Below, one piece after another: positions 40,675 through 43,431 of a stretch of 63,658 nucleotides of DNA (positions are counted from its first letter, which is position 1; the number at the start of each line of letters is the position of its first letter). The stretch spans positions 1-63,658 of the forward strand of contig CAHJWM010000033.1 of NCBI GenBank assembly GCA_903642325.1. Direction: 5' to 3'. The position numbers and the translations under genes were made by a program. The notes beneath the pieces are model-generated. The model searched no databases, was not told the origin of the DNA, and saw only the letters and a program-made list of their open reading frames with translations. Origin of the DNA: Myxococcales bacterium. GTDB lineage: Bacteria > Myxococcota_A > Polyangia > Polyangiales > Polyangiaceae.

Positions 40675-41541
40675 ATGATTGCCGAAGGATCCGAACGCGC
40701 CACCCTGCTCGTATCCTGCCCGGACCGGCGTGGGATCGTCGCGGCGCTGGCCCAGGTGCTGTACGGGCACGGCGCCAACATCTTCGACTCGGTGCAGCAC
40801 ACGGACCCGCTCGCGGCGCAATTTTTTCAGCGCCTTCACTTCGACCTGACGGACCTGCAGACCGACCGCGCAACGCTCGAACGTGCCATCTCGGAGGTCG
40901 CCGAGCGCTTCGGCATGCGTTACGAGCTGCGTTTTCAAAGGCAAGCCAGGCGCGTTGCGCTGTTCGTCTCGCGCTACGACCATTGCCTATACGATCTTCT
41001 GTTACGGCACCGGAGCGGGGAGCTTTGCTGTGAGCTCCCGCTGATCATCAGCAATCACCCCGAGCTCGAGCCGGTTGCTCGGCAGTTCGGAGTCGAATTC
41101 AAGGTCGTGCCCGTCTCCACAGACGCCAAATCCGCCGCTGAGACCGCGGAGCTCGAGCTGCTTGCCGAGCGCGGCATCGAGCTCGTGGTGCTGGCTCGCT
41201 ACATGCAGATCTTGAGCGCGGATTTCATCGGCAAATTCCCGGGTAAGATCATCAACATTCACCACTCATTTTTGCCGGCGTTCGTGGGCGGTAAGCCCTA
41301 TCACCAGGCCTATCAGCGCGGCGTCAAGCTGATCGGCGCGACCGCGCACTATGTCAGCGCAGTGCTCGACGAGGGGCCGATCATCGAGCAAGACGTGGTG
41401 CGCTGCTCGCATCGCGACGCCATCGAAGACTTGGTTCGCAAGGGGCGCGACTTGGAGAAGGTGGTGTTGGCGCGCGCAGTGCGCCTGCATTTGGAAGAGC
41501 GCCTACTCATTTTCGGCAATAAGACCGTTGTCTTCGAGTGA
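40675..41541 (+). CDS. purU: Formyltetrahydrofolate deformylase
   Basis: PurU hydrolyses 10-formyl-THF to formate and THF, balancing one-carbon pools and supplying formate for purine synthesis. The 288-residue protein has an N-terminal ACT domain (about 1-85, LVSCPDRRGIVAALAQVL) and a formyltransferase-type catalytic domain. The latter has LARYMQILSADFI, NIHHSFLPAF with catalytic Asn and His, and LDEGPIIEQDV with the Asp. The ATG follows GGAAGG. It fits with purL and purM also encoded in this window. Confidence 0.97.
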   Translation: MIAEGSERATLLVSCPDRRGIVAALAQVLYGHGANIFDSVQHTDPLAAQFFQRLHFDLTDLQTDRATLERAISEVAERFGMRYELRFQRQARRVALFVSRYDHCLYDLLLRHRSGELCCELPLIISNHPELEPVARQFGVEFKVVPVSTDAKSAAETAELELLAERGIELVVLARYMQILSADFIGKFPGKIINIHHSFLPAFVGGKPYHQAYQRGVKLIGATAHYVSAVLDEGPIIEQDVVRCSHRDAIEDLVRKGRDLEKVVLARAVRLHLEERLLIFGNKTVVFE

Positions 41542-41596: not shown

Positions 41597-42535
41597 TCAA
41601 GCGTTCGCATCGAAGCTTGCCCGCATGCGGACCACGGCAAGGTCGACCTCCGCCCAGGTCACGACTTGCTGCAACCGCGCGTCGTTCAGCGCGATTTTTC
41701 GCGCGTTCCTGCCGCCCAACCAGACCGGCATGTCCGCGGGCAGAGCGCTCAACAAACGCCGTAGGTGCCCCTCCGTCACCGCGATATCGGAGCTGGAGGA
41801 GATGGTGACTCCGACCACTTGCACAGAAAGCGCGACCGCGGCTTCCGCGACCTGGTCGGGCGGCGTATTCACGCCCAGGAGGCGCGTCGTGATTCCCTCC
41901 AGAGCCAGGTACAGAGCCACCATATGCAAACCCAGCCCGTGCTGCTCGTCGGTAAACCCGGCCAGCAGAGCCACCGGGCCCGATAGGCGATCGTCGTAAG
42001 CCGACGACAGAAGCCGCAATTGGCCGGACAGCACCTCGGATAAGAGATGCTCGTGCCGTATCGCGATGCGGCCCGCCGCCCACGCCTCGCCCACGCGCTC
42101 CACGAGCGGGGCGGCGACATCCGTCAAGAATTGGCGCGGGCCGAACAGCGCCACACTGCGCCGGAGCTCGTCGCGCAGGCCGTCCGGATCGTCGGCCATT
42201 AGCCGAGCAAGCAGCGAGTCGATGGTCGGCGTGCGTTGTTCGTTCTCGGTCTCGATGCGGGCCGAATTGGCCAGGATGTTTCGCAGCTCTTCGACGCCGC
42301 GATGGATGACCTCACCGGAACGGAAGCCGGCCTTCAGCGCGCGCGACACCAACACCAAACGTTCGATGTCGGCGTCGGTGTACACGCGCACTTGTGAGCC
42401 ATTGCGCAACGGTTTTGGAAAGCCGTAACGGCGCTCCCACATACGCAGCGTGTCGGGCGAGACGCCGGTCAGCCGTGATGCCACGCGAATGGAATAGCCC
42501 GGCAAAGCTTCGGAGTCGTCGCGGGGCGGCACCAT
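41597..42535 (-). CDS. MerR-family regulator with adenosylcobalamin-binding domain (CarH/LitR-like)
   Basis: The 312-residue protein has an N-terminal MerR helix-turn-helix (about 14-80; YSIRVASRLTGVSPDTLRMW) and a C-terminal cobalamin-binding module (about 105-305). The helical-bundle signature W-x9-EH is exact (Trp152, Glu162, His163), and the B12 motif ExHxxG is at 197-202 (EQHGLG, His199 the expected lower ligand). SxSSS and WLGGRN complete the Rossmann part. It should bind DNA as a B12-dependent, possibly light-sensing repressor as CarH does. The residue after Trp152 is Ala, where Thermus CarH has the His that caps cobalamin after light. No carotenoid gene is nearby. Confidence 0.93.
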   Translation of the reverse strand: MVPPRDDSEALPGYSIRVASRLTGVSPDTLRMWERRYGFPKPLRNGSQVRVYTDADIERLVLVSRALKAGFRSGEVIHRGVEELRNILANSARIETENEQRTPTIDSLLARLMADDPDGLRDELRRSVALFGPRQFLTDVAAPLVERVGEAWAAGRIAIRHEHLLSEVLSGQLRLLSSAYDDRLSGPVALLAGFTDEQHGLGLHMVALYLALEGITTRLLGVNTPPDQVAEAAVALSVQVVGVTISSSSDIAVTEGHLRRLLSALPADMPVWLGGRNARKIALNDARLQQVVTWAEVDLAVVRMRASFDANA

Positions 42536-42544
42536 GACCCGCTA

Positions 42545-42573
42545 GCGTTAGTCCTAGACAAGAGTTCGTCAAG
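42545..42573 (-). promoter_or_regulatory. Possible promoter/operator of the MerR-B12 gene
   Basis: On the minus strand, TTGACG (42568-42573), a 17-base spacer and TAACGC (42545-42550) precede the ATG by about 9 bases, so the transcript would be almost leaderless. The -35 overlaps an imperfect dyad, GACGAACTCTTGTC (GACnA...TnGTC). This could be an autoregulatory operator, but the -10 match is weak. Confidence 0.3.
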
Positions 42574-42612: not shown

Positions 42613-43380
42613 TTAAAGTGGTTTTGCGGAGCGCGCGGCCTCGATGGCTTGGTCGAGAGCTAATGGGCTGAAGCCAACCAAGACCTGCCCCATGACATCG
42701 ATCACCGGAATGCTGGAGCCGGTTCGGCCGGCGCGCGCCAACTTTTGGCGCATTTCCGCGGCCGCCAGCTCATTCTCCTCGATGTCCTTATCGACGACAG
42801 TCACCCCGCGCTGCTTCAGGTAGCGCGCGGCATCGTGGCAAGGTTTGCACCACGACGCGCCGTAGATGGTGGCGCTAACGCCCGTGGCCAGCCTTTTGGA
42901 GCTGGCCGCGGAGTCCGAGCTCATGCCGGCCGCCGCTGAATCGGGCGGTGTGGCGACCGCGCTAGGGGCCAGTGCCTCCAAGCGTGACTTGCGTTTGCCC
43001 GCCCCGAGCTCGTCCCAAGCCGCACGCGAAAGGGTCTTCACGCGGTAGCTGCCGGCCGGTGTGACCTCATTCAAGTTCGCGACGTACACGAGCTTGCCCG
43101 TGCCTTCTTCGCGCGTCGTCACCACGACGCGCACCGGATCACGGCTCTCCTTGGGCACGTCGGCCGGCTTCTGCACCACGTGGAAGTCGCCCTTGTCGTC
43201 GATCCAGGTCAAAAGCAAATTGGGGGTTTCTTCTTTGACCTCGAGAGGTGGAAGCTCCGCGGCTTGCGGCGCGGCGCCCGTGTCGTCGCCCGGCTGCGGC
43301 GCAACCTGCTTATGGCATGCGACCAGAAGCACCGCGAGCGCCAGCGCTCTGCGCAAGTTGGAGCGCAGCGCGCGGCCCAT
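42613..43380 (-). CDS. Lipoprotein with C-terminal glutaredoxin-like domain
   Basis: The 255-residue product (ATG at 43380) has a lipoprotein signal ending LLVAC. The middle (about 45-130) includes LTWIDDKGDFHVVQKPADVP, which resembles a DUF4124-like segment. The C-terminal 85 residues are a glutaredoxin fold: ATIYGASWCKPCHDAARYL with a CxxC redox site, SSIPVIDVMG with the cis-Pro, and VLVGFSP. The domain order and signal suggest an envelope thiol-disulphide protein. The gene lies between the ABC-F gene (51 bp) and the MerR gene (77 bp) on the same strand. Confidence 0.85.
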   Translation of the reverse strand: MGRALRSNLRRALALAVLLVACHKQVAPQPGDDTGAAPQAAELPPLEVKEETPNLLLTWIDDKGDFHVVQKPADVPKESRDPVRVVVTTREEGTGKLVYVANLNEVTPAGSYRVKTLSRAAWDELGAGKRKSRLEALAPSAVATPPDSAAAGMSSDSAASSKRLATGVSATIYGASWCKPCHDAARYLKQRGVTVVDKDIEENELAAAEMRQKLARAGRTGSSIPVIDVMGQVLVGFSPLALDQAIEAARSAKPL

Positions 43381-43431
43381 GCCCGGAGCCCCATCGTGTC
43401 TCGACTCGCTTTCGACCGCGCGACCCATCTG

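Follow-up and report, generated by a model that had tools for sequence, protein, structure and literature searches.

The window, the whole stretch of DNA that we analyzed, comprises 63,658 nucleotides of a Myxococcales bacterium contig (CAHJWM010000033.1). At its center of interest lies a gene for a MerR/cobalamin-binding regulator (Table 1), in which Pfam recognizes, all above cutoff, MerR_1 (residues 14-76), B12-binding_2 (106-173), and B12-binding (190-277). The recognition helix of the MerR domain reads LRxWERRYG. A convergent neighbor with ACT and Formyl_trans_N domains is purU-like, and its product is presumably formyltetrahydrofolate deformylase-like; directly upstream, on the same strand as the regulator gene and possibly cotranscribed with it, is a gene for a glutaredoxin-domain protein. 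The other neighbors tested with Pfam encode Hsp33, an ABC-type ATPase, a 5′-nucleotidase-like protein, and a second glutaredoxin. None of the named, Pfam-tested neighbors in the window is a light gene, which counts against the reading we favor below. A glutaredoxin-domain homolog also sits directly upstream in one same-genus relative (L004/L156). We considered the order of purU-like, regulator, and glutaredoxin-domain genes as meaningful synteny and rejected it: few relatives have it, and it looks like ordinary neighborhood inheritance. Elsewhere in the window there is a thiamine pyrophosphate (TPP) riboswitch (RF00059; 33620-33713, minus strand; 69.9 bits).

TABLE 1 Features of the regulator gene, its surroundings, and the crt locus of the same genome (window coordinates unless a contig is named)
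Feature	Position	Strand	Basis
CDS, MerR/cobalamin-binding regulator, 312 aa	41597..42535	-	ORF, Pfam
MerR winged-helix DNA-binding domain, residues 14-76	42308..42496	-	Pfam MerR_1, alignment
Four-helix cobalamin cap subdomain, residues 105-179	41999..42223	-	B12-binding_2, AlphaFold secondary structure, Thermus CarH fold match
Trp152-Ala153 (Trp131 position kept, His132 position Ala)	42077..42082	-	Alignments, fold alignment
His161-Glu162-His163 (Glu140, Glu141-His142 of Thermus CarH)	42047..42055	-	Alignments
Rossmann-type B12-binding subdomain, residues 188-311	41603..41974	-	Pfam B12-binding, AlphaFold model, fold alignment
His199, position of lower axial cobalt ligand (His177 of Thermus CarH)	41939..41941	-	Invariant, 106/106
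Candidate promoter/operator: TTGACG (42572-42567), 16-bp spacer, TAACGC (42550-42545)	42545..42572	-	Conservation, genome search
CarH-like 11-bp-spaced repeats: TAGACA (42555-42560, perfect TnnACA), TCGTCA (42566-42571, 3/4)	42555..42571	+	Shuffle test
Glutaredoxin-domain protein, upstream neighbor, possibly cotranscribed	42613..43428	-	ORF, Pfam
purU-like convergent neighbor (ACT, Formyl_trans_N)	40675..41541	+	Pfam
MerR-only crt-linked CarH, 102 aa	Contig C18, L123:8316-8624	-	Search, synteny
CarH-type operator before crtY, about 4 bp from likely start codon	Contig C18, L123:13887-13914		11/12 letters

The closest PDB sequences to the regulator (HMMER) are chains of Thermus CarH (E 4.5e-24). 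A first-pass annotation had read from the DNA intact W-x9-EH and ExHxxG cobalamin signatures and an Ala where Thermus CarH has the cobalt-capping His132, and it was right about all three: Trp152 and Glu162-His163 are present, the lower-ligand motif is E197-Q-H199-x-x-G202, and HMMER, MAFFT, and fold alignment agree in placing Ala153 (codon GCG, 42079-42077) at the His132 position. In HMMER, the residue opposite A153 is His132 in Thermus CarH and Ala in a chain of a solved variant; the structure search names PDB 8c35 as the H132A variant.

An AlphaFold model of the regulator (42 aligned sequences; mean pLDDT 94, pTM 0.72) ranked Thermus CarH 5c8d first in Foldseek (E 1.9e-15). With VIA-align, the model matched the Thermus B12 domain at Z 20.8 and rmsd 2.3 over 195 residues, with the same Z and rmsd for the H132A variant, and matched CtMerR of Chloracidobacterium thermophilum at Z 20.3 and rmsd 3.3. 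Photocobilins, at Z 20.6, tie with CarH, and the next scores (about 18) belong to AppA and methionine synthase; the fold therefore marks the regulator as kin of B12 domains at large, not of CarH alone. Model residues 100 to 304 align to CarH 79 to 274; this offset of about 21 equates Ala153 with His132 and His161 with Glu140.

By architecture, the regulator resembles LitR/CarH proteins of class I, with N-terminal MerR, four-helix, and Rossmann B12 domains and the intact Wx9EH of that class. The Rossmann subdomain, absent from class II LitR, is present, as is the Trp of Wx9EH that is missing from CarA. It shares with T. thermophilus CarH/LitR (PDB 5C8D, 5C8F) the domain order, fold, Trp/Glu/His/His pocket, and LRxWERRYG helix, but the two are only 28% identical over aligned columns. 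Besides lacking the His after Trp of the Thermus-type bis-His pair, the regulator has Gln198 and Asn223 in place of the dimer salt bridge (Arg176-Asp201 in Thermus CarH numbering), Asp181 in place of Gly160, and a different wing loop (RNGSQVRVY, versus RTPGGHRLY in Thermus CarH), differences that count against a CarH-like reading. It scored 111.6 bits with the NCBIfam CarH equivalog NF052513, against a cutoff of 400. In the SignatureFinder signature of light-responsive cobalamin-binding domains (CBDs), GxxW, EH, and GxxxP are present, but the GxxH step fails (D196-E-Q-H); Gly occupies that position in 38 of 106 aligned rows. CtMerR (PDB 8JBS/8JBT), likewise a MerR-type CBD protein without capping His (it has Arg), retains GxxH where the regulator has Asp-x-x-His, and the similarity is remote (31.7 bits). 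The motif D/ExHx2G/P-x41-SxT/V-x22-27-GG (PMC9304148) fits at ExHxxG and GG, and its SxT/V step reads T244-I-S246.

We aligned the regulator with its relatives by MAFFT. The resulting 106 rows, of which the regulator is one, represent 114 proteins with duplicates merged. They come from the 80 top-scoring loci among the 192 of one scan, 29 further loci, and four plasmid hits, with the regulator's own locus (L001) and a locus encoding a DNA-binding domain only (L002) excluded; being drawn mainly from best-scoring loci, the set leans toward kin of the regulator. The positions of Trp131, Glu141, His142, and His177, and with them W-x9-EH, are invariant in all 106 rows. The His132 position is variable: E 36, A 22, M 21, S 6, H 5, F 4, Q 3, V 3, R 2, I 2, C 1, and K 1. 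The five rows with His are Thermus CarH and four proteins (L096, L098, L100, and L102) from genomes of the regulator's own family or order. In the regulator's clade, whose 22 other members form one side of a branch with SH-aLRT 98 (in a quick tree, built without bootstrap, in which Thermus CarH forms a long branch), those members have A 14, S 3, E 2, R 2, C 1, and never His. A group of beta- and gammaproteobacterial MerR-CBD proteins joins the clade (support 85, with inner branching poorly separated) at 30 to 38% identity, differing in that most have Glu or Met at position 132 and in their gene neighbors.

His is also missing from all eight CarHs found at a syntenic carotenoid (crt) locus in related myxobacteria, where the residues are Q, V, Q, E, E, A, Q, and A. 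Seven of these genes are flanked by crt genes, whereas the one remaining gene lies on a short contig and has only the conserved small membrane-protein gene beside it; three further loci examined alongside showed no such link to the carotenoid locus. The crt-operon CarHs (L166, L168-L172, and L175) have the class I pocket without His132, as the regulator does, but they occupy a separate branch (SH-aLRT 96) and are carotenoid-linked, which the regulator gene is not. In the 30-row set from which these residues were read, Wx9EH is present in 22 rows; the rows without it are L136 and L149, which are long frames, and shorter MerR proteins. Three additional CarHs encoded near a phytoene-synthase hit have Glu (G031), Ile (G012), and His (G010; L096), so the family does include a carotenoid locus with this His; many myxobacterial CarHs are stated to carry it in PMC9304148.

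Judged by this alignment, lack of His132 in the regulator is ordinary among its relatives, 101 of the 106 lacking it. The first-pass annotation had suggested that the missing His might point to another chemistry for sensing light or B12, and had named an alignment of CarH homologs as a check. The residue is truly missing, and that much stands; its absence, as the alignment shows, is nothing special and makes weak evidence for novelty. Such chemistry has, moreover, already been described: according to PMC11796333, CtMerR, with Arg at the His132 position, goes from a dark tetramer to a monomer in light, and the absorbance of SasPcob (Gln) and AbDPcob (Tyr) responds to light. For both reasons we rejected the missing His, taken alone, as a mark of new chemistry.

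The sequence upstream of the regulator gene carries, on the coding strand, TTGACG-N16-TAACGC, which ends nine bases before the ATG and may supply −35 and −10 hexamers. Its 28-mer agrees at 22 of 28 bases with the same place in L003, whose protein is 54% identical and with which it has TTGTCTAGGACTAA in common, and at 19 of 28 with L009. TTGAC-N6-TTGTC recurs in 7 of the 23 clade rows (the regulator gene, L003, L009, L010, L014, L017, and L021), L020 has a near form, and the remaining rows are without it. Allowing two or fewer mismatches, TTGAC-N6-TTGTC-N3-GACTAA matches the 5.83-Mb genome once, at the regulator gene (25-bp core, 42548-42572), and G028 has one exact match, at the ortholog L003. 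Since the pattern was drawn from these two genes, both matches arise by construction; the informative part is that nothing else in the regulator's own genome matches. The reversed control gave no match in that genome or G028, two in G013, and one each in G002 and G020. Before the clade genes of G002, G013, G017, and G020 the core pattern is absent, so that the two positives among the six genomes searched are the pattern sources themselves. G013 has one two-mismatch core match between its clade gene and a DCC1-like gene.

CarH sites, according to PMC9304148, consist of consecutive 11-bp repeats, each built on the core TnnACA. Read on its other strand, the upstream element is TAGACA-N5-TCGTCA, one perfect and one imperfect repeat of this type. 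In a two-repeat test, the 77-bp gap upstream of the regulator gene scored 7 of 8 letters, and 9 of 300 shuffles that keep base content only were as good. We found no three-repeat CarH operator upstream of the regulator gene (P = 0.305) or of the glutaredoxin-domain gene (P = 0.722), and no self-similarity at lag 11 upstream of the regulator gene (P = 0.64). A possible autoregulatory promoter-dyad had been annotated at 42545-42573. The interval does contain an element conserved upstream of some related genes, although a generic σ70 promoter scan did not call it and exact inverted repeats within the interval are all short. The conserved element strengthens the idea of autoregulation, in which the regulator would bind there directly.

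Among the regulator's relatives, evidence for CarH-type operators is more extensive. We scored three TnnACA motifs at 11-bp steps, with first-order Markov shuffles for clade, beta/gamma, and crtY regions; the Thermus control scored 12 of 12 letters (0 of 300 shuffles, with base content kept, were as good). Of the 22 clade mates, 12 had P ≤ 0.05 in their upstream regions, as did 23 of the 61 beta/gamma loci. The exact three-repeat pattern has seven matches in 11 genomes versus none in the reversed control: three at clade genes, one at a SOUL gene, two overlapping at a FAD-oxidoreductase/DUF1365 operon, and one at a gene without Pfam match. At the eight nearest relatives of the regulator (L003-L009 and L015), the test was below significance (P = 0.09 to 0.945), and several of these proteins have a different wing loop. 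On this evidence the clade works with CarH-type sites, from which the regulator's own subclade may have drifted.

The surroundings of related genes are also informative. Fasciclin-domain genes adjoin the clade gene at seven loci (L008, L010, L011, L013, L014, L018, and L021; one was tested with Pfam), six of them in divergent orientation, and near sister loci we noted DCC1-like genes (four loci, one Pfam tested) and σ factor-like ORFs (three loci, named by eye). Upstream of 64 beta/gamma loci, the recurrent clusters, with one member of each checked by Pfam, are DUF1365 (31), cyclopropane fatty acid (CFA) synthase (30), FAD-oxidoreductase (26), and glutathione peroxidase (19); these neighbor sets resemble light or photo-oxidative regulons of LitR or MerR relatives described in PMC9758184 and PMC5241685.

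When we searched the regulator's own genome with its sequence at E 0.001, the sole other match was a MerR-only gene on contig C18. It comes after a crtY-crtE-crtI-crtB-membrane protein series, at the place where syntenic relatives have a full-length CarH, and its product is 46 to 55% identical to the DNA-binding domains of the eight syntenic-locus CarHs. Seven full CarHs, compared by tblastn with 20 kb of sequence, found the DNA-binding part alone at a meaningful E value. A PF02310 search of the genome hit five places, three above cutoff (the regulator and frames of 1,322 and 620 aa) and two weaker (frames of 995 and 125 aa). Taken with the homology searches, this makes the regulator the only intact CarH-type sensor found in the genome. 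An operator is retained before crtY: TATACA-N5-TGTGCA-N5-TGGACA scored 11 of 12 letters, and 0 of 500 shuffles were as good; the crtY regions of seven relatives gave P values of 0.058, 0.03, 0.232, 0.048, 0.004, 0.034, and 0 (≤0.05 in five of seven). The window and contig C18 are alike in composition (GC, 0.640 and 0.642; tetranucleotide correlation, 0.989). At a completeness of 98.97% and a contamination of 3.49%, an assembly error behind the truncated CarH is possible. Sensorless CarH relatives as such are not new, since LitR classes IV and V, which have no B12 domain, are known (PMC9758184). Among the papers listed by our search of the open literature, which mostly leaves out subscription journals, none dealt with the regulator's clade or with truncation of a crt-linked CarH to the DNA-binding domain.

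These findings raise the tentative idea of a split CarH, which we think rather unlikely: the regulator, by itself or jointly with the sensorless remnant, would supply light sensing to the crt genes in trans via a His-free light state. It might thus act on crt from a distant locus. Two relatives make it less likely that the clade controls crt in general: G029 has both carotenoid genes and a clade member, but there is no CarH motif in 18.5 kb of its sequence and no operator of at least 10/12 letters in the same 18.5 kb; G017 has two clade members and no phytoene-synthase hit.

Sequence, fold, pocket residues, clade, upstream element, and CarH operators at sister genes were observed directly; from them we infer that the regulator binds AdoCbl, responds to light, represses, and binds its own upstream region. 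We favor, with reasonable if limited confidence, a class I-like LitR/CarH protein that is AdoCbl-dependent, released by light, and self-repressing. Its genome encodes an AdoCbl-forming enzyme family, the Cob_adeno_trans adenosyltransferase. In the dark, AdoCbl would be bound between the four-helix cap and the Rossmann domain, with the adenosyl group contacted by Trp152 and Glu162 and with His199 under the cobalt; the AdoCbl-bound protein would oligomerize and repress its own promoter, and probably others, via TnnACA-type sites. Light would break the Co-C bond. Since Ala occupies position 132, we propose that water or hydroxide, perhaps aided by Glu162, would then cap the cobalt in place of a second His, much as it does in CtMerR and the Thermus H132A variant; the complex would loosen and the promoter open. 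The regulator probably senses light, and for it to do so through AdoCbl without a His cap is a fair expectation.

The most serious rival, which we consider less likely though far from negligible, is that the regulator reports B12 status as a sensor of AdoCbl levels: without a capping His, light would release it poorly. Most Thermus H132A protein stays tetrameric after light (PMC10442372), which counts against the light-released reading; the salt-bridge and interface residues that differ from Thermus CarH, and the lack of a light gene among the tested neighbors, point the same way. The same source, however, recounts an earlier study of full-length H132A that reported disassembly, so that the need for His132 in light disassembly of Thermus CarH is disputed there, and CtMerR dissociates in light without this His (PMC11796333). 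The eight His-less CarHs at the syntenic carotenoid locus also argue for light release, as does the location of relatives' genes near FAD-oxidoreductase, DUF1365, and CFA synthase genes, or near fasciclin and DCC1-like genes.

The remaining alternatives seem to us improbable to different degrees. Myxococcus CarA does not need B12 to work although its B12 motif is intact, and the regulator could similarly retain the fold alone as a B12-independent protein; this is unlikely, given that CarA, according to PMC9304148, lacks the Trp of Wx9EH, the residue represented by the invariant Trp152. Slightly less likely still is bis-His chemistry after all, with His161 or another His taking over as upper ligand once light has acted. 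Of the 22 clade mates, 15 have His at position 161 and 7 have Gln. His161 immediately precedes the Glu-His pair of the next helix, and by the helical geometry of the model its side chain should point away from the cobalt; His161 as occupant of the capping site, an option left by the first-pass annotation, thus finds no support. Least probable of all is a B12 domain that has lost its function, in a protein answering to some other signal, for example redox stress. The glutaredoxin-domain gene directly upstream, with its homolog likewise placed in the same-genus relative, would suit such a role, but all four cobalamin-contact residues are conserved and CarH-type operators occur at 12 of 22 clade mates.

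Under the light-released, class I-like reading, the regulator and the crt-linked CarHs, as natural versions without His132, some of them with operators, can reveal how a B12 light switch operates without a second His. The truncated crt-linked CarH is a natural experiment on whether a sensorless DNA-binding domain still controls carotenoid genes and whether a paralog took over from it. The upstream element, together with sensor loss in the genome's other CarH, makes the regulator gene a useful test case.

Operator-like sequences also turned up away from clade genes. In the regulator's own genome, the three-repeat pattern at two or fewer mismatches matched 37 times, not above the 45 of its reversed control, and we therefore used one-mismatch matches alone; there are three, at two places (the reversed control was counted at two or fewer mismatches only). 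About 100 bp upstream of lexA on contig C29, a TnnACA-like 11-bp unit is repeated four times in tandem (L215:1255-1293); the repeats may be due to chance or form a LexA-type site. G017, the genome without a phytoene-synthase hit, has an exact CarH operator (L218:4157-4184) upstream of a gene for a SOUL heme-binding protein, and G002 has a one-mismatch CarH operator (L217:1718-1745) 38 bp upstream of a σ70 family gene.
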